The notes: generated from the letters alone by a model not told the origin. Counted from the stretch's first letter, positions 44,084-52,943 are shown. The stretch: 64,000 nt of DNA from an uncultured Acidobacteriota bacterium (GCA_937859595.1 CALMAH010000014.1:248001-312000); one strand, 5' to 3'. Numbers and translations are program-made.

Positions 44084-45316
44084 ATGAACGGGGGCCAGGA
44101 CTCGGGTGCGGAAATTGCGTATTCGTGTTCGGATGATATGAACGACAGCGGGACAGGGGTGCAGCCGGCTACGGAGCGTGTGGCGGCGGACGTTATTGGC
44201 GGCAGCGGGCCGACGGTAATGGTCTTTGGCGGGCTTCACGGCAACGAGGCGGCGGGGCTAAAGGCGATCAGGCGGATGGCGGAGCCGCTGGAGGAGCTAA
44301 GGGACAAGCTGCGGGGCCGGGTGCTGCTGCTGGCGGGAAACCGGCGTGCGCTCGATCGCGGCGTGCGGTTCATTGACAGCGATCTCAACCGCCACTGGAC
44401 GGACGAGAACATCACGCGGAGCGACCCCGACTCTGCGATCCCGCCGCAGATGTCCGAAGACCTGGAACAGCGGGAACTGCTTGCGATAATCACGCCTGCG
44501 ATCGCGGAGGCGCGGGGCGAGGTCTATGCTATCGACCTGCATTCCACATCGGCGGAGGGCGTGCCCTTTGCGACGGTCGGCGACACGATGCGGAACCGGC
44601 GTTTTGCCCAGAGCCTGCCGGTGACCATACTGCTCGGGATCGAGGAACAGCTCGAAGGCACGCTACTTGAATACCTAAATAACATCGGAGCTGTAACACT
44701 CGGGTTTGAAGGCGGGCAGCACTATGCCGAAAAGACCGCCAGGACACATGAAGCGCTTGTGTGGCTTTCACTTATATCGGCGGGTGTCATAGCCCGCGAG
44801 GATCTGCCGGATGCGGAGCTTCACGCAGAGACCGTGAAAAATGCCACAGGAAGCCCGCGGATCTTAGAAGTGCGGTATCGGCACGCGATAGGCGAAGAGG
44901 ACGATTTTTCGATGAATCCGGGTTATGAGAACTTTCAGCCTGTCAAGAGAGGCCAGCATGTCGCAGACGGACGGTTTGGCCCGATAAAGGCGCCGGAAAG
45001 CGGGCTAATACTGATGCCGCTATACCAAAAGCTCGGCGAGGACGGATTTTTTATCGGGCGGGAGATAAGCCCCTTCTGGCTCTGGCTTTCGGCGATACTC
45101 AGGCGGATGAGGATACCGGACCTGGTTCATTTTCTTCCGGGCGTACATTCGACGGACGAGGGCCGCGAGGTGCTAAGGGTGGATACGGGCGTGGCGAGGC
45201 TCTTTCCGCTGCAGGTCTTCCACCTGCTCGGATTCAGAAAACTTCGCTGGCACGACCGCAGCCTTTTCGTCAGCCGGCGGCGACACGACCTGCACAGCCC
45301 GTTTGCCGACAGGTGA
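44084..45316 (+). CDS. Succinylglutamate desuccinylase/aspartoacylase family zinc hydrolase
   Basis: A 410-residue M14-related deacylase. The zinc ligands are expected in VFGGLHGNEAAG (His and Glu) and in AIDLHSTSAEG (His); DSDLNRHWTDE and LGFEGGQHY carry further conserved residues. The C-terminal 150 residues form the usual beta domain plus an extension (FFIGREISPFWLWLSAILRRM). Family members remove acyl groups from amino acids or peptides in the cytoplasm. The start is uncertain; ATG codons at 44084 and 44138 are both possible. A GCS2-type ligase follows after 57 bases, which suggests a shared pathway. Confidence 0.85.
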   Translation: MNGGQDSGAEIAYSCSDDMNDSGTGVQPATERVAADVIGGSGPTVMVFGGLHGNEAAGLKAIRRMAEPLEELRDKLRGRVLLLAGNRRALDRGVRFIDSDLNRHWTDENITRSDPDSAIPPQMSEDLEQRELLAIITPAIAEARGEVYAIDLHSTSAEGVPFATVGDTMRNRRFAQSLPVTILLGIEEQLEGTLLEYLNNIGAVTLGFEGGQHYAEKTARTHEALVWLSLISAGVIAREDLPDAELHAETVKNATGSPRILEVRYRHAIGEEDDFSMNPGYENFQPVKRGQHVADGRFGPIKAPESGLILMPLYQKLGEDGFFIGREISPFWLWLSAILRRMRIPDLVHFLPGVHSTDEGREVLRVDTGVARLFPLQVFHLLGFRKLRWHDRSLFVSRRRHDLHSPFADR

Positions 45317-45373
45317 CCGGCCGGGCGCAGATCTCTCACAGAGACATGCCGAGGGAGTGCGGCACGAGAAGTT

Positions 45374-47347
45374 ATGGGAGACAAGACGGTACATCAGACC
45401 TCGGACGAGGCCCAGATCAGAGAATTTACAAAGGCGGTATTGAACGACCTGCACGCGATGGAAGAGATGCTGCGTTCGGGATCGCTGGAGCCGCACGCAC
45501 GGCGGATAGGGGCCGAACAGGAGATGTTCCTGGTCGATTCTTCGCTGCACCCGGCGGCATATTCCGAACAGGCGATAGCGGCGTCCGGCGACCCCCGGCT
45601 GACGACGGAGATAGGGCAATTCAACCTTGAAGCGAATCTGACCCCGAGAGAGCTTGGCGGCGACTGTCTGCGAAGGATGGAGCAGGAGCTGGAAGAGGTC
45701 ATCGGCGAGGTAAAACATGTGATGCGGCAGCGGCGAGGCGAGGTGGTGCTCTGCGGGATATTGCCTACGATACAGGGCTCAGACCTAAAGGAGCAGAACC
45801 TGACACCACAGCCGCGCTATGCGGAACTCAACCGTGTGTTGACGGCGCTGCACGGCGACGACCGGTTTGTCCACATTAAGGGACTTGACGAGATAAGGCT
45901 CTATCACAAGGACACCTTTATTGAATTTTGCAACACGAGCTTTCAGGTCCATCTACAGCCGCCGATAGCGGAATTTACGAACGCCTATAACTGGGCACAG
46001 GCGATCTCGGCTCCGGTGCTGGCCCCGGCGGTCAATTCCCCGCTGCTGCTGGCTCACCGGCTCTGGCACGAAACGCGGCTTGCCCTGTTTCAACACGCCG
46101 TGGACGAACGCTCGCAGATACATCATGAGCGGAGCCGCCCGGCACGCGTAACGTTCGGGCGCAGCTGGGTGAACGATTCGATCGTGGAGATATTTCACGA
46201 GGACGTGGCTCGTTTCCGGATAATCCTGACACGCGACCTGGAAGAAAACTCGATGGAGACGCTAAGGCGGGGCGGGGTGCCGAGGCTAAAGGCCTGGAGC
46301 ATGCACAACGGCACCGTCTGGCGATGGAACCGTCCGTGCTATGGGATAATGAACGGCAAGCCGGGGCTGAGGATAGAGGCCCGCTATCTGCCGGCGGGGC
46401 CAACGATACTCGACGAGATGGCGAATGCGGCGTTCTTTATCGGGCTGATGGAGGCGCTGCCGCGCGAATTTGGCGACGTGAGAATGAGAATGTCATTTGA
46501 CGACGCGAAGACCAATTTTTTCACTGTGGCGAGGTACGGGCTGCGGTCGCAGATAACCTGGCTTGACGGGCGTTCGCACAGCACACCGCAGCTGATCCTG
46601 GACGAGCTGCTGCCGCTGGCCCGCCAGGGTCTGGAGCGCGCGGGGATAGACGGAGAGGACATTGGCCGCTATCTCGGCACGCTTGAGGAGCGTGTGGAAC
46701 GCGAGATGAGCGGGGCACGCTGGATGCTGGATTCGATAGCAAGGATGGACCCGGCGGCGAAGCAGAACGTAAGGATGAGGACGCTGGTGGCGGCGATGGT
46801 AGAGAACCAGAACGCGCGGCTGCCGCTGCACGAATGGCCGCTGGCCACGATAAGGGACCGCTCAGAATGGATAGATAATTTTCGAACGGTGGAGCAATTT
46901 ATGTCGCGCGATCTTTTTACGGTAAGGCCCGGAGACGTGCTTGACCTGGCGGCGAGCCTGATGGAATGGAAACACGTCCGCCACGTACCTGTAGAGGACG
47001 ACCAGGGGCGGCTGGTGGGGCTGATCTCGCATCGCGACCTGCTCTCGCTGCTGGCGACGGAACGCGAGCGGGCGGCGGGCGACCTGCTGGTCTCGGACGT
47101 GATGAAGACGGAGCTGGCGACGATACCGCCGGAGACGCGGACGCTGGACGCACTTTATATGATGCGCGAGCGGGGCATCGGATGTCTGCCGGTCTGCAGA
47201 GACGGGAAATTGGTGGGAATGATAACCGCTCACGATTTTTTGACGGTCTCGACACGGCTGCTGGAAGAGCGGCTTCGCCAGGAAGAGCTGGGTCCGGAGC
47301 CTACTTCCGACGAGCTTAGAGCGGAGAACGCGGTGGGCGGACAATGA
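45374..47347 (+). CDS. GCS2-type carboxylate-amine ligase fused to a CBS pair
   Basis: A 657-residue fusion. Residues 1-480 belong to the glutamate-cysteine ligase GCS2 group: RRIGAEQEMFLVDSS, TEIGQFNLEANLTP, TSFQVHLQPP, SMHNGTVWRWNRP and RIEARYLPAGPT, which bind ATP, metal and an amino acid. Residues about 512-640 are two CBS motifs (MEWKHVRHVPVEDDQGRLVG and MRERGIGCLPVCRDGKLVG). The enzyme should join an amino acid carboxylate to an amine with ATP; the substrates are unknown. The CBS pair suggests control by adenine nucleotides or SAM. It follows a deacylase gene. Confidence 0.87.
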   Translation: MGDKTVHQTSDEAQIREFTKAVLNDLHAMEEMLRSGSLEPHARRIGAEQEMFLVDSSLHPAAYSEQAIAASGDPRLTTEIGQFNLEANLTPRELGGDCLRRMEQELEEVIGEVKHVMRQRRGEVVLCGILPTIQGSDLKEQNLTPQPRYAELNRVLTALHGDDRFVHIKGLDEIRLYHKDTFIEFCNTSFQVHLQPPIAEFTNAYNWAQAISAPVLAPAVNSPLLLAHRLWHETRLALFQHAVDERSQIHHERSRPARVTFGRSWVNDSIVEIFHEDVARFRIILTRDLEENSMETLRRGGVPRLKAWSMHNGTVWRWNRPCYGIMNGKPGLRIEARYLPAGPTILDEMANAAFFIGLMEALPREFGDVRMRMSFDDAKTNFFTVARYGLRSQITWLDGRSHSTPQLILDELLPLARQGLERAGIDGEDIGRYLGTLEERVEREMSGARWMLDSIARMDPAAKQNVRMRTLVAAMVENQNARLPLHEWPLATIRDRSEWIDNFRTVEQFMSRDLFTVRPGDVLDLAASLMEWKHVRHVPVEDDQGRLVGLISHRDLLSLLATERERAAGDLLVSDVMKTELATIPPETRTLDALYMMRERGIGCLPVCRDGKLVGMITAHDFLTVSTRLLEERLRQEELGPEPTSDELRAENAVGGQ

Positions 47348-47473: not shown

Positions 47474-48460
47474 ATGAACTTGAGATATTTTATCCTGCTG
47501 CTATTTCTTTTCGCGCTCGGGAATGGGTCTGCGGCCGCTCAGACGGCGTCGCCGATAATGATAGTGCTCAACAAAGCGGACAACGACGCTGTGTTCGTCG
47601 ATCCGGTCGCGATGAAAGTGCTCGGCAAGGTGGCGGTGGGCACAGGGCCGCACGAAGTGGTGTTTTCGGAAGACGGCAGGCTGGCATTTGCGGTGAACTA
47701 TGGTGCGCAGACGCCCGGCAACAGCATCTCGGTGCTGGACGTGGCCGCAAGAAAAGAACTGCGTCGGGTGGACCTGGGGCCGTTGATGCGTCCGCACGGG
47801 ATACAGGTGATCGGCGGAAAGGCCTATTTCACGGCCGAGACCAACCGGGCGATAGCAAGATACGATCCGGAAGCGAACAAGGTGGACTGGATAATGGGAA
47901 CAGGCCAGAACGGTTCGCACATGATAGCGGGCAGCCGCGACCAGAGGCGATTTTACACCGCGAATATCGGCTCGGACACGGTGACGGCATTCATGTTTCA
48001 AAATGTGCCGCCGGCGGGTTCGCAGATAGTGCAGATACCGACGGGACGGCAGCCGGAAGCGATAGATATGTCGCCGGACGGCAAAGAGGTCTGGGTGGGG
48101 CTGAACCAGGACGGCGGCATCGATGTGATAGACACGGCGACGAACAAGGTGGTGCGGCGCGTGGACCTGGGCGGGCGGCCATATCGAGTTCGCTTTACGC
48201 CGGATGGGAAATATGTGGTCAATCCGACGTGGCCGTCGAATGAACTCATCATCGTGGACGCCGCTACAAAAGAGATCGTAAAACGCATCAAGATGGAAAG
48301 CGTGCCTTTTGGGATAGATTTCACACGCGACGGCAAATATGCCTTTGTGACCGCGATAAAACCCGACCTGGTTTACAAAGTAAACCTTGAGACGGGTACC
48401 ATAGAGGGCAGCGTTGAGACCGGCAACCAGCCGGACGGCATCGCCCTGTTCGGGATGTAA
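47474..48460 (+). CDS. Exported YncE/YVTN-type beta-propeller protein
   Basis: A 328-residue protein with a signal peptide (YFILLLFLFALGNGSAAAQ) and about seven propeller repeats, such as VGTGPHEVVFSEDGRLAFAV, IPTGRQPEAIDMSPDGKEVW and LGGRPYRVRFTPDGKYVV. Function is unknown; such folds bind ligands or proteins in the periplasm. AGAGG lies before the ATG. A terminator follows. Confidence 0.88.
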   Translation: MNLRYFILLLFLFALGNGSAAAQTASPIMIVLNKADNDAVFVDPVAMKVLGKVAVGTGPHEVVFSEDGRLAFAVNYGAQTPGNSISVLDVAARKELRRVDLGPLMRPHGIQVIGGKAYFTAETNRAIARYDPEANKVDWIMGTGQNGSHMIAGSRDQRRFYTANIGSDTVTAFMFQNVPPAGSQIVQIPTGRQPEAIDMSPDGKEVWVGLNQDGGIDVIDTATNKVVRRVDLGGRPYRVRFTPDGKYVVNPTWPSNELIIVDAATKEIVKRIKMESVPFGIDFTRDGKYAFVTAIKPDLVYKVNLETGTIEGSVETGNQPDGIALFGM

Positions 48461-49442: not shown

Positions 49443-52400
49443 TTACGGCAAAGTGTTCCAGGCCGGGACGACAACGCGTATCGGGCTTGAGCGGTTGCCT
49501 ACATTATCGTCCGCAAAGGCCTCGACGACCTTCGCCGTCGGCAAGTGAAGAAAGAATGTCCCGGTGTATATCTGGAACGGCCCCGTTTCACCGACACGAT
49601 AGTAAACCGTCTGCACTCCGGACTCGGTGTCAGCAGCGTTGATGGTGATCAACCGCCCCTGTCCCGTCCTGTGGCTATACTCCAGACTAACCAAAGGAGC
49701 AGTTACGTCCTGAGCCGCCGTCCCAGTAACCCGAACGTGCGCCGGAACAACCGTATCATACGTCCCATCGCCATTCGAATCGTAGCTTAGGTCTGGCACC
49801 CCTTGCGGATTGAACGTAAGCAAACATTCCACATTTGGCGGAAGATCCAGATCGATATAGCGAATCGCCAGATTCGGCGAGCTATTACCGACCCCCTTGA
49901 GCACCTCGATATCAATCGAATCTGTCCCTGTCATGAATTTGATGGTGTATTCGCCTATGTCTGCGGGCAGAGATAACCCGTGATAGCCGATATTGACCTC
50001 GTCGGCATAAATTCCGCCGTGATAGCCCACGCCTGGAACTGAGAGTTCGAAACCGTCATCGCCAAGAGGAGTGTTGGTGTTACCCTCATTGTCAGTAATA
50101 TCCAAACGGTCAACTCCTTCGATTGTAGCGTAGTACATCTCCACTTTCGGCGGCGTCTGTGCGCCGGTGGGGACTCCTTTATCCAAAATTACCATCTTCA
50201 TTGCTGCCTCCGTATTTTGATGTAGAGTACCACCAACCAATGCCTGATTTGGCAATTCCAGGATTTCCAAAACCTCTTCAAGTATCTCAGTTGCCTTAAC
50301 CAAACCGAGGTGTTCGTAAGCTTCGTCTTGTGAAGAACTCTCTGACACAAATCCTATGACAGTTGCATTCGGCGCGTTAAAATTCAGCCCACTCGGGCAG
50401 TTCGCGATTTCACACCTTTCTGCACTCAGCCTCGGCACAGTCTTGTCCCCTGGACCGAGTTTTGATCGAATCCGAAGGTCAAGGCGTGTAACCGATAGCG
50501 GTTTCTTTGCAATCGGCCGGGCTACGATCTGTTCAATAGTGTCGGCCCCTCTACGCTCGCCGAATATGTGAAAATAATCGACTCCGCTAGTATCGCCTCG
50601 CCAGTCATCCTGACCTGCAAAGCCATGAAACAATTCATTGTTAAGATAGGGTGCGGTCGGAAATCGATCATTGAAGAACTCGAATATTTGTGGGTAGTCA
50701 TACTCCTCGGGAAACGTGCCGTTCCCATTTATATCGAAGGTTTCTTCCGCAAAGGGGCTCCCGCCTAAGTCAAAGTATGCTTCTGAGGGCAAAAGCTCGT
50801 GCGCAGCAAGTGATTCGATCGCTATATTCTTAACTCTTGGAGGCGAGGCTCGTAGTGCAGTTTTACCAAGAATGCCTTCGAGGGATTTAGGTTTTCCGGT
50901 TTCGATAACTTGCAGAGCTTCCGGTGCCCCAAGAAACGGTGAGCCAATCGAAATCATTTTCCGAACGCTATGGTCTTGCGGATTTGAAATTATGTAGCGA
51001 CGTGCAAGCAACCCGCCCATACTGTGTGCGACGAGATCGACCTTGGTTCCGGGATGAAATTTCTGTATGCAGCCGATATAGTCCTTTAGCTTTTGCGCAT
51101 TCTCAATGTTACTGAGTCGCCAGTCATATGCGAACACAAACAGCGTGGGTGAGTTAAATCGCTGTTGCAAATCACAGCCTTGCGTGGTTCGCCTACCCGG
51201 AATACCATCAACCAAATATTCTCTGAGACCACCTGACACCCCCAGCGTCTGCAATAACGGACCGTAGATTGGCTTTAGCTCTCCTGGAAGAAGGTAACGA
51301 ATAACGTCTGTGGCAATAATGTTGGCATTGTTTGATGGCAGCAATCTGTCAAGGTTGCTCCCAGTGAAAATAGATGGTCCCAACCCCGGCCATCGCTCTG
51401 GCGGCGTGCCGCTACCGGTTACTTCGGCCAGTCTGCTTCCCGTTATGCCCGGAATAAAAATAACAGGAGTTCCGGCGCGTTCTGCTCGGACGATCAGGTT
51501 GCCATTATTTGTGACTAGGTGAAAGGCGAGGCGGTGGTCGCCGGGGCTTTGGGCTGTTGAGCCGGGAGTTCTGACGCCTGCCAGATGGTCATATACATTG
51601 ATGGCCGTGACGGTGCGTCCGTCGACCGTGTCGCCTAACTGTATGACCGGAACCGGAACGGCGGGGCGTTCGCGAAGTACGCCGCCTACATTTTTGATCT
51701 GTGTCGTGACCGTCCATAATCCTGGCTGATCGCTGAACGGACGGTTTGGGTTGTCGCTGGCCACGTTTGGGGTTCCCTGAAATGAGACAACGAATATATC
51801 GTCTTCGATTCCCTTTGCCCCGGCTTCCTGATGCGTAACGGCGATCCGATCCAACTGGTCAAACGAACTGAAAACTATCGGCGTGCCGCCCGTGGTAAAA
51901 CCAAGCTCGCCCGGCATGCAGGTCTCTCCGGGGTCGCACCAGCCGTCATCGTTGCCGCCCGGGGCAGAAATATCTTCGATAAGCCTTCCCGCGAGCCTGA
52001 CTATTTGCCGGGTGCCCTTGTCCTCGTCTATCTCAATAGAAGCAAAAATGCCCGGCCCGGGATTTGTGCCCAATGCATCGGCCCCGACCTGATTCAGGTC
52101 GCCGTAAAATGTGATCACCTCATTTGTTTTACTGATCGCAGGACTTTGCCCAACCGATGTAAAGCCGTCAATTATGCCTGCTATGACATCGGATTTGGCC
52201 AGATCGTATGAATATATCATTATCGGGTCTGTCTGGTTTGCTCCTGCACGAAGAACAATATCTCCGTAGTTGCTGATCGTTGGTCGAAGAGAATCGCCGG
52301 TCGAAGGAAACTGCAATAATGAAAAATGCGGCCTGATCCCTGTTGTAAGGATCGTGGTGTCGTTTCCGATACGGGTTACATAAACCGGCTGCCCGAAATT

Positions 52401-52943
52401 GTTGATGCTTATCGAGCTGGCATATATCTGATTGAAATCATTGAAACCACCCGCACCGTTTGCTGCCGCCACAAGCGTATAATCGCTCACATCGTTTATT
52501 CGACGCAGGAAATTTTGCGCAGGCGTGGTGCCGGAAATAAATGTTTGTTGGATAACTTGCCGGAAATCGTTTATCTTTACTCTGCCTCCGACAAAGTTGA
52601 TCGGATTACCGCTGAACTCCGGCATCAGGTCAACATTCGACTGGCCTATTCGGCTCAGGAATACGGTTCCGCCGCCTGTGGTAAATCTTCCGGAAAAGGC
52701 AACATCACCAAAATCATTGATCGAAGGTGCTGCAAACACTTGTAGATTTGAACTGCTCGCCTCGACGATCTCATAACGATAGAACTTTCTGGGTTCAGTC
52801 TGCGAGAATCCTGCCTGAACCAACACTAATAACAATAAAGCGCTAATCGCTCTTAAATTTTCATCTGCGTACTCCTTACAATATGCAAGGAAGAAACCGG
52901 AAACGAACAGGACCTTTTGCATAGACCGCATCGGTTTCTCCAT
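49443..52943 (-). CDS. Very large secreted lipase/acyltransferase-like protein, start region frameshifted
   Basis: A protein of up to 1166 residues. A hydrophobic export segment (ISALLLLVLVQAGFS) is followed by about 420 residues of repeated INNFGQ / INDFGD / ISNYGD motifs that look like a propeller. The centre is an alpha/beta hydrolase of the LCAT type, with TPVIFIPGITGSRLAEV and the nucleophile motif VAHSMGGLLARRYI. The C-terminal 300 residues are beta-rich. The natural start seems to be the ATG at 52864, which has TAAGGAG in front, but that frame stops after three codons; one more A in the run of four would restore MKNLRAIS. The open frame instead reaches 52943. Confidence 0.8.
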   Translation of the reverse strand: MEKPMRSMQKVLFVSGFFLAYCKEYADENLRAISALLLLVLVQAGFSQTEPRKFYRYEIVEASSSNLQVFAAPSINDFGDVAFSGRFTTGGGTVFLSRIGQSNVDLMPEFSGNPINFVGGRVKINDFRQVIQQTFISGTTPAQNFLRRINDVSDYTLVAAANGAGGFNDFNQIYASSISINNFGQPVYVTRIGNDTTILTTGIRPHFSLLQFPSTGDSLRPTISNYGDIVLRAGANQTDPIMIYSYDLAKSDVIAGIIDGFTSVGQSPAISKTNEVITFYGDLNQVGADALGTNPGPGIFASIEIDEDKGTRQIVRLAGRLIEDISAPGGNDDGWCDPGETCMPGELGFTTGGTPIVFSSFDQLDRIAVTHQEAGAKGIEDDIFVVSFQGTPNVASDNPNRPFSDQPGLWTVTTQIKNVGGVLRERPAVPVPVIQLGDTVDGRTVTAINVYDHLAGVRTPGSTAQSPGDHRLAFHLVTNNGNLIVRAERAGTPVIFIPGITGSRLAEVTGSGTPPERWPGLGPSIFTGSNLDRLLPSNNANIIATDVIRYLLPGELKPIYGPLLQTLGVSGGLREYLVDGIPGRRTTQGCDLQQRFNSPTLFVFAYDWRLSNIENAQKLKDYIGCIQKFHPGTKVDLVAHSMGGLLARRYIISNPQDHSVRKMISIGSPFLGAPEALQVIETGKPKSLEGILGKTALRASPPRVKNIAIESLAAHELLPSEAYFDLGGSPFAEETFDINGNGTFPEEYDYPQIFEFFNDRFPTAPYLNNELFHGFAGQDDWRGDTSGVDYFHIFGERRGADTIEQIVARPIAKKPLSVTRLDLRIRSKLGPGDKTVPRLSAERCEIANCPSGLNFNAPNATVIGFVSESSSQDEAYEHLGLVKATEILEEVLEILELPNQALVGGTLHQNTEAAMKMVILDKGVPTGAQTPPKVEMYYATIEGVDRLDITDNEGNTNTPLGDDGFELSVPGVGYHGGIYADEVNIGYHGLSLPADIGEYTIKFMTGTDSIDIEVLKGVGNSSPNLAIRYIDLDLPPNVECLLTFNPQGVPDLSYDSNGDGTYDTVVPAHVRVTGTAAQDVTAPLVSLEYSHRTGQGRLITINAADTESGVQTVYYRVGETGPFQIYTGTFFLHLPTAKVVEAFADDNVGNRSSPIRVVVPAWNTLP

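Follow-up and report, generated by a model that had tools for sequence, protein, structure and literature searches.

A recurrent bacterial gene pair of an AstE/AspA-type zinc hydrolase and a GCS2-fold ligase with a fused CBS pair: a candidate make-and-break cycle on an amide

We analysed a stretch of 64,000 nucleotides of DNA from an uncultured Acidobacteriota bacterium (hereafter the window), in which two neighbouring genes encode a predicted zinc amide hydrolase of the AstE/AspA type and a carboxylate-amine ligase with the GCS2 fold (that of YbdK and plant glutamate-cysteine ligase, GCL) and a pair of CBS domains. The two genes are paired far beyond chance, and because the pair recurs across many unrelated bacteria it very likely represents a real two-enzyme system. 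No description of it was found in the open-access literature that we searched; within that literature it is an undescribed, recurrent pair built from known parts.

The two genes and their products

The first gene (44084..45316, + strand) encodes a protein of 410 aa that we classify as a predicted AstE/AspA-type zinc amide hydrolase. It matches the Pfam family PF24827 (AstE_AspA_cat) with 60.8 bits against a cut-off of 25, the match defining a catalytic domain at residues 42-213 (44207..44722, +). The AF2 model (pLDDT 86.9) is nearest in fold to DoeB (6twm, VIA Z 23.1) and AstE (1yw6, 21.7), followed by CphZ (8ein, 20.5) and aspartoacylase (2gu2, 20.0). The HxxE zinc motif, GGLHGNE with H52-E55 (44237..44248, +), is invariant and aligns with GGTHGNE in aspartoacylase. 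The zinc ligands H52, E55, and H153 and the catalytic glutamate E209 are identical in 22/22 relatives, as are R95, N102, and R103; in the alignment, these three correspond to the residues with which aspartoacylase holds its substrate's carboxylate. The protein probably cuts an amide bond. It has its fold, zinc motif, and DLNR motif in common with the AstE/DoeB/aspartoacylase family, CphZ included, but the identity is only about 15-20%, and hydrolases of the window type differ further by their link to a GCS2-CBS ligase and, in most members, by an extension at the C-terminus (about residues 330-410). It also scores below the curated NCBIfam models for aspartoacylase (50.6 bits vs 180), AstE (35.7 vs 305.65), and DoeB (14.5 vs 402.7). 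Its start codon is uncertain: conservation begins at about residue 34 and residues 1-31 are modelled with low confidence, and translation may in fact begin a few dozen codons further downstream.

On the same strand, after a gap of 57 nt (45317..45373, +) in which no terminator-like site was found on the + strand, follows the second gene (45374..47347, +). Its product of 657 aa is a carboxylate-amine ligase of the GCS2 fold (AF2 model, pLDDT 89.9, pTM 0.88). The ligase domain, residues 25-482 (45446..46819, +), superposes best on 1tt4 (VIA Z 36.2) and E. coli YbdK (1r8g, 35.7), then on the plant GCL (2gwc, 31.0) and 3ig5 (28.5). It contains GhExE, the metal/ATP signature of carboxylate-amine ligases (PMC2588565), as G46-A-E48-Q-E50 (45509..45523, +); G46, E48, and E50 are invariant in 47/47 aligned ligases, and so are E79, E86, H193, and the pair E335-x-R337; YbdK has matching motifs for all of these. 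The GCS2 half reaches 17.9-19.8 bits with Pfam PF04107 and thus stays under the gathering cut-off of 21, which is a curation threshold and no biochemical feature; we therefore file the protein as GCS2-like by fold and signature and not as a Pfam GCS2 member. GCS2 is matched at E 0.01 or better by 12 of 13 members of the ligase family (best E 1.1e-9). A profile of the GCS2 half found no matches among PDB sequences, and hhalign of the ligase against a single E. coli YbdK and a single GshA gave nothing significant, so the kinship with GCS2 rests on the Pfam matches of relatives, the fold, and the motifs. The window ligase thus resembles YbdK and plant GCL in fold, GhExE, and other catalytic motifs, yet is set apart from them by its length of 657 aa, extra segments, the CBS pair, and the hydrolase partner.

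The C-terminal part (residues about 504-634; 46883..47275, +) holds two CBS repeats (PF00571, 96.7 bits); in the model, the fold of residues 501-635 is closest to 2o16 (VIA Z 19.7) and to AcuB with AMP (9s52, 19.3). The likeness to AcuB extends to sequence (about 33% identity), fold (Z 19-20), and the Arg-His nucleotide residues: by alignment, Arg33-His34 of AcuB apparently correspond to R536/H537 of the ligase, R536 being present in 47/47 ligases and H537 in 34/47, with Tyr in the remaining 13. The [ST]xxD ribose motif is weak in CBS1 (D555 in 5/47) and mostly kept in CBS2, so that the pair likely has only one canonical nucleotide site. AcuB binds AMP/ADP and is reported to be an energy-charge sensor (PMC13121692); it has an ACT domain as well and regulates a partner protein, whereas the CBS pair of the window is fused to the enzyme. 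This pair is a probable sensor of adenine nucleotides, i.e. of cell energy. An earlier note on this DNA had proposed energy or SAM control. Structure rank and residues give the adenine-nucleotide part the better support and the SAM part less, with the SAM/MTA-bound CBS pairs of MJ0100 obtaining good structural scores too. The same note had recognised a ligase, a CBS pair, and a zinc deacylase, an anatomy upheld by the PF24827 and CBS scores and the GCS2 fold.

Co-occurrence and gene order

Among 247 Acidobacteriota genomes, both genes occur in 28, the ligase only in 19, the hydrolase only in 5, and neither in 195 (Fisher p 1.6e-19; called hydrolases score at least 156 bits and the background no more than 40); the corresponding numbers are 33, 14, 1, and 151 for 199 Planctomycetota genomes (p 2.1e-25) and 23, 11, 0, and 25 for the nearest relatives (p 2e-8), p-values that ignore the shared ancestry of the genomes within each survey and hence overstate their independence. 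The neighbourhood survey called for in the earlier note, which had claimed the pairing and had named rare co-occurrence in advance as the outcome that would speak against it, thus favours the pair in all three samples, both genes being present in 28/33 hydrolase-bearing genomes of Acidobacteriota and 33/34 of Planctomycetota. The 14 to 19 ligase-positive genomes per phylum without hydrolase indicate that the ligase can work without it.

The two genes are also often adjacent. In the genus of the window, the hydrolase lies directly upstream of the ligase (or a ligase fragment) in 18/20 hydrolase-bearing genomes. By their coordinates, 16 of the 28 pairs in Acidobacteriota adjoin, 8 in each gene order, and 27/36 hydrolase genes in Planctomycetota come immediately after the ligase. 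At least 585 ligase relatives were obtained by scanning public genomes, and 80 loci were kept; the hydrolase adjoins the ligase in 27 of these 80, distributed over Acidobacteriota, Planctomycetota, Myxococcota, Gemmatimonadota, Krumholzibacteriia, Bacteroidota, and Balneolota. The order is hydrolase-ligase in the genus of the window and ligase-hydrolase elsewhere, and in several loci the ligase stop and the hydrolase start share an ATGA-type overlap of 4 nt. Since both opposite orders occur, the genes appear to have been joined more than once.

A variant arrangement is seen in Balneolaceae, where two tandem GCS2-CBS ligase paralogs (ca. 45% identical) are followed by one hydrolase (L095 7001-10882; L100 7001-10872; L110 7001-10871). 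Both paralogs possess the full catalytic set, which suggests either a heteromer or two different products.

Hydrolases with other partners

Members of the hydrolase family that lie away from a GCS2-CBS ligase are informative on the kind of partner. In three loci, L129 (Acidobacteriota), L190, and L191 (both Planctomycetota), the hydrolase gene overlaps by 4-11 nt that of a PGM1-like peptide ligase, ATP-grasp/PGM1_C (identified by Pfam in L129 and L190, and by homology, 671 bits, in L191); in another three (L127, L128, L136) a stand-alone GCS2 gene is found near the hydrolase. Genome G403 has both kinds of arrangement: one hydrolase after a GCS2-CBS ligase and a second before an ATP-grasp ligase. 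For several other unlinked hydrolases, no ligase was recognised in the vicinity. The partners found beside this hydrolase family have in common that they are ATP-dependent amidoligases. A quick tree places the hydrolases linked to ATP-grasp genes in a single supported subclade with nine members (SH-aLRT 99), and they are probably a paralogous branch; as the subclade is separate, the exchange of partner may point to a paralog that acts on another substrate. The earlier note had described an ATP-grasp protein as the usual partner in such ligase-hydrolase pairs and as missing here. The flanking window genes that were searched indeed gave no ATP-grasp match, but the usual partner of this hydrolase family is the GCS2-CBS ligase, ATP-grasp genes being found beside only 3 hydrolase genes.

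Other neighbours of these hydrolases deserve a brief mention. At L127 (8029-10372), in a genome that lacks the GCS2-CBS ligase, the gene after the hydrolase encodes a homologue of deoxyhypusine synthase (PF01916, 224.8 bits), an unusual neighbour in bacteria. A P-loop protein of ca. 300 aa (HPr-kinase-like by eye) recurs near stand-alone GCS2 genes and the hydrolase in one acidobacterial family (L127 7369-7938 and 12162-13067; L136 2605-3519; L138 10247-11188); the L138 copy has no Pfam match. At L184 (7390-10285) a polyphosphate kinase 2 gene (PF03976) starts 10 nt after the hydrolase, possibly another energy link. Finally, a hydrolase relative on contig C41 of genome G185 (G185:C41, within L131), a genome without the ligase, has one TAG inside the match; it is possibly a decaying gene, or the TAG may be a C-terminal stop.

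Proposed function and alternatives

We lean towards an adenylate-gated cycle in which a single carboxyl-bearing amide is made by one enzyme and broken by the other. The ligase would phosphorylate a carboxylate with ATP, probably one on the side chain of glutamate or aspartate, and couple the activated group with an amino acid, through its amine, or with a similar carboxyl-bearing amine; the hydrolase would cleave the same amide and give back both halves. The hydrolase keeps the carboxylate-binding set of its family and would cleave an amide with a carboxylate on its amine part. The AcuB-like CBS pair would bind adenine nucleotides and set the ligase activity by the energy charge, so that the product would accumulate at plentiful energy and be recovered when energy is short. 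From the likeness to AcuB, the simplest reading is that the adenylate state throttles the ATP-using half; we infer the direction of this control, as we do adenylate binding and a bond shared by both enzymes. Within the AspA family, the cyanophycin dipeptide hydrolase is known to cleave an isopeptide bond that an amidoligase has made (PMC10206079), and cyanophycin synthetase with CphZ provides a make/break precedent to which the window pair may be likened. A further precedent is a second new family of GCS2-sized carboxylate-amine ligases, which have a thiol peptidase or a gamma-glutamyl cyclotransferase as neighbour (PMC2588565): there too the ligase gene is linked to that of an amide-breaking enzyme, but the ligase family and the hydrolases are others and a CBS pair is not reported.

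More tentatively, and with less confidence than in the cycle itself, we entertain the wider notion of a widespread cycle in which the energy-sensing GCS2-CBS ligase and its dedicated AspA-type hydrolase turn over a new storage or buffering amide, the hydrolase family being able to combine with amidoligases of unrelated fold as well. If true, this would be an uncharacterised two-enzyme cycle, with a ligase tied directly to an energy sensor, in hundreds of genomes of several phyla, and it would give a function to a ligase family that is unnamed in the curated libraries searched. The pair is a defined set of enzymes for substrate discovery, and the occasional pairing of the hydrolase with unrelated amidoligases offers a handle on the bond that is cut.

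Three other readings compete with the make-and-break cycle. The first, which we regard as unlikely though as the one deserving most attention, is a sequential pathway: the ligase would join an N-acylated amino acid or peptide, and the hydrolase would deprotect it, the two acting on different bonds. DoeB, AstE, and aspartoacylase, nearest to the hydrolase in fold, all remove N-acyl groups, and co-occurrence and adjacency fit this pathway equally well. However, a non-exhaustive search recognised no N-acyltransferase among the recurrent neighbours, and the retention of the hydrolase while the type of ligase swaps fits turnover of a bond somewhat better.

Second, the ligase may be an ordinary gamma-glutamylcysteine ligase serving a low-molecular-weight thiol, with the hydrolase recycling gamma-Glu-Cys or acting on an unrelated acyl amino acid. 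This would agree with the YbdK and plant GCL fold and with the intact catalytic set, but several observations make it improbable. The genome of the window has no match to the ATP-binding domain of glutathione synthetase (GSH-S_ATP, the type that was searched) and its contig C30 bears a GCS2 gene of canonical type (206 bits) besides the ligase, for which reasons ordinary glutathione synthesis is an unlikely role for the ligase in this organism. In addition, neither a CBS fusion nor an AspA-type hydrolase is, to our knowledge, part of the known GCL systems.

Least probable of the three is a peptide or protein tag, in which amino acids attached by the ligase to the C-terminus or a side chain of a protein would be trimmed off by the hydrolase, as PafA and Dop do with Pup: the fold superfamily takes in PafA and Dop (Z 17.7-19.2) and the deoxyhypusine synthase homologue adjoins the hydrolase at L127, but the fold is much nearer to that of the small-molecule ligases YbdK and GCL (Z 31-36), the hydrolase is closest in fold to enzymes with small-molecule substrates, and no small conserved tag-like gene recurs in the general neighbourhood clusters. 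PafA and Dop do resemble the window pair in their opposed make and break activities and in a ligase of the same broad carboxylate-amine ligase fold (PMC2588565); they have one common fold and a protein tag, whereas the zinc hydrolase of the window is unrelated to its ligase, and no gene for a tag was recognised.

Other neighbouring genes

We claim no third core gene, since in the neighbourhood clusters the neighbours vary by lineage. They include a universal stress protein, a sensor kinase with an NtrC-type regulator, an FNR-like regulator, multihaem cytochromes, PntB, a dihydrolipoamide-dehydrogenase-like protein, SRAP, and a nitroreductase. Longest-ORF calls in GC-rich loci include antisense false genes; the matches used here are only those with support from a profile or from homology. 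The PADLOC models (systems known by 2023) matched neither the hydrolase nor the ligase.

Downstream of the ligase in the window lies a gene for a YncE-like beta-propeller protein (47474-48460, +) that may be co-transcribed with it; L027 and L028, two loci from congeners, have a homologue in the same region. Further on, an 1166-aa protein (49443-52943, -) contains an LCAT/lipase-like alpha/beta hydrolase domain (PF02450, 58 bits) and long sequence without a match outside it.

In two other loci of the genus of the window (L030 5930-13703; L033 6146-13975), the hydrolase-ligase pair is followed by a protein of ca. 118 aa without a Pfam match, and beyond it by a CRP/FNR-like regulator, a multihaem cytochrome (both recognised by eye), and a large protein that is likely located in the outer membrane. 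Such multihaem cytochromes also occur near the hydrolase genes of another family within the class (L036, L038), and a link of the pair to respiration is possible. A gamma-glutamyltranspeptidase-like gene, again recognised by eye, comes directly after the ligase in L099 (2454-4172) and is located upstream in L100 (3700-5256) and L110 (3008-4591).
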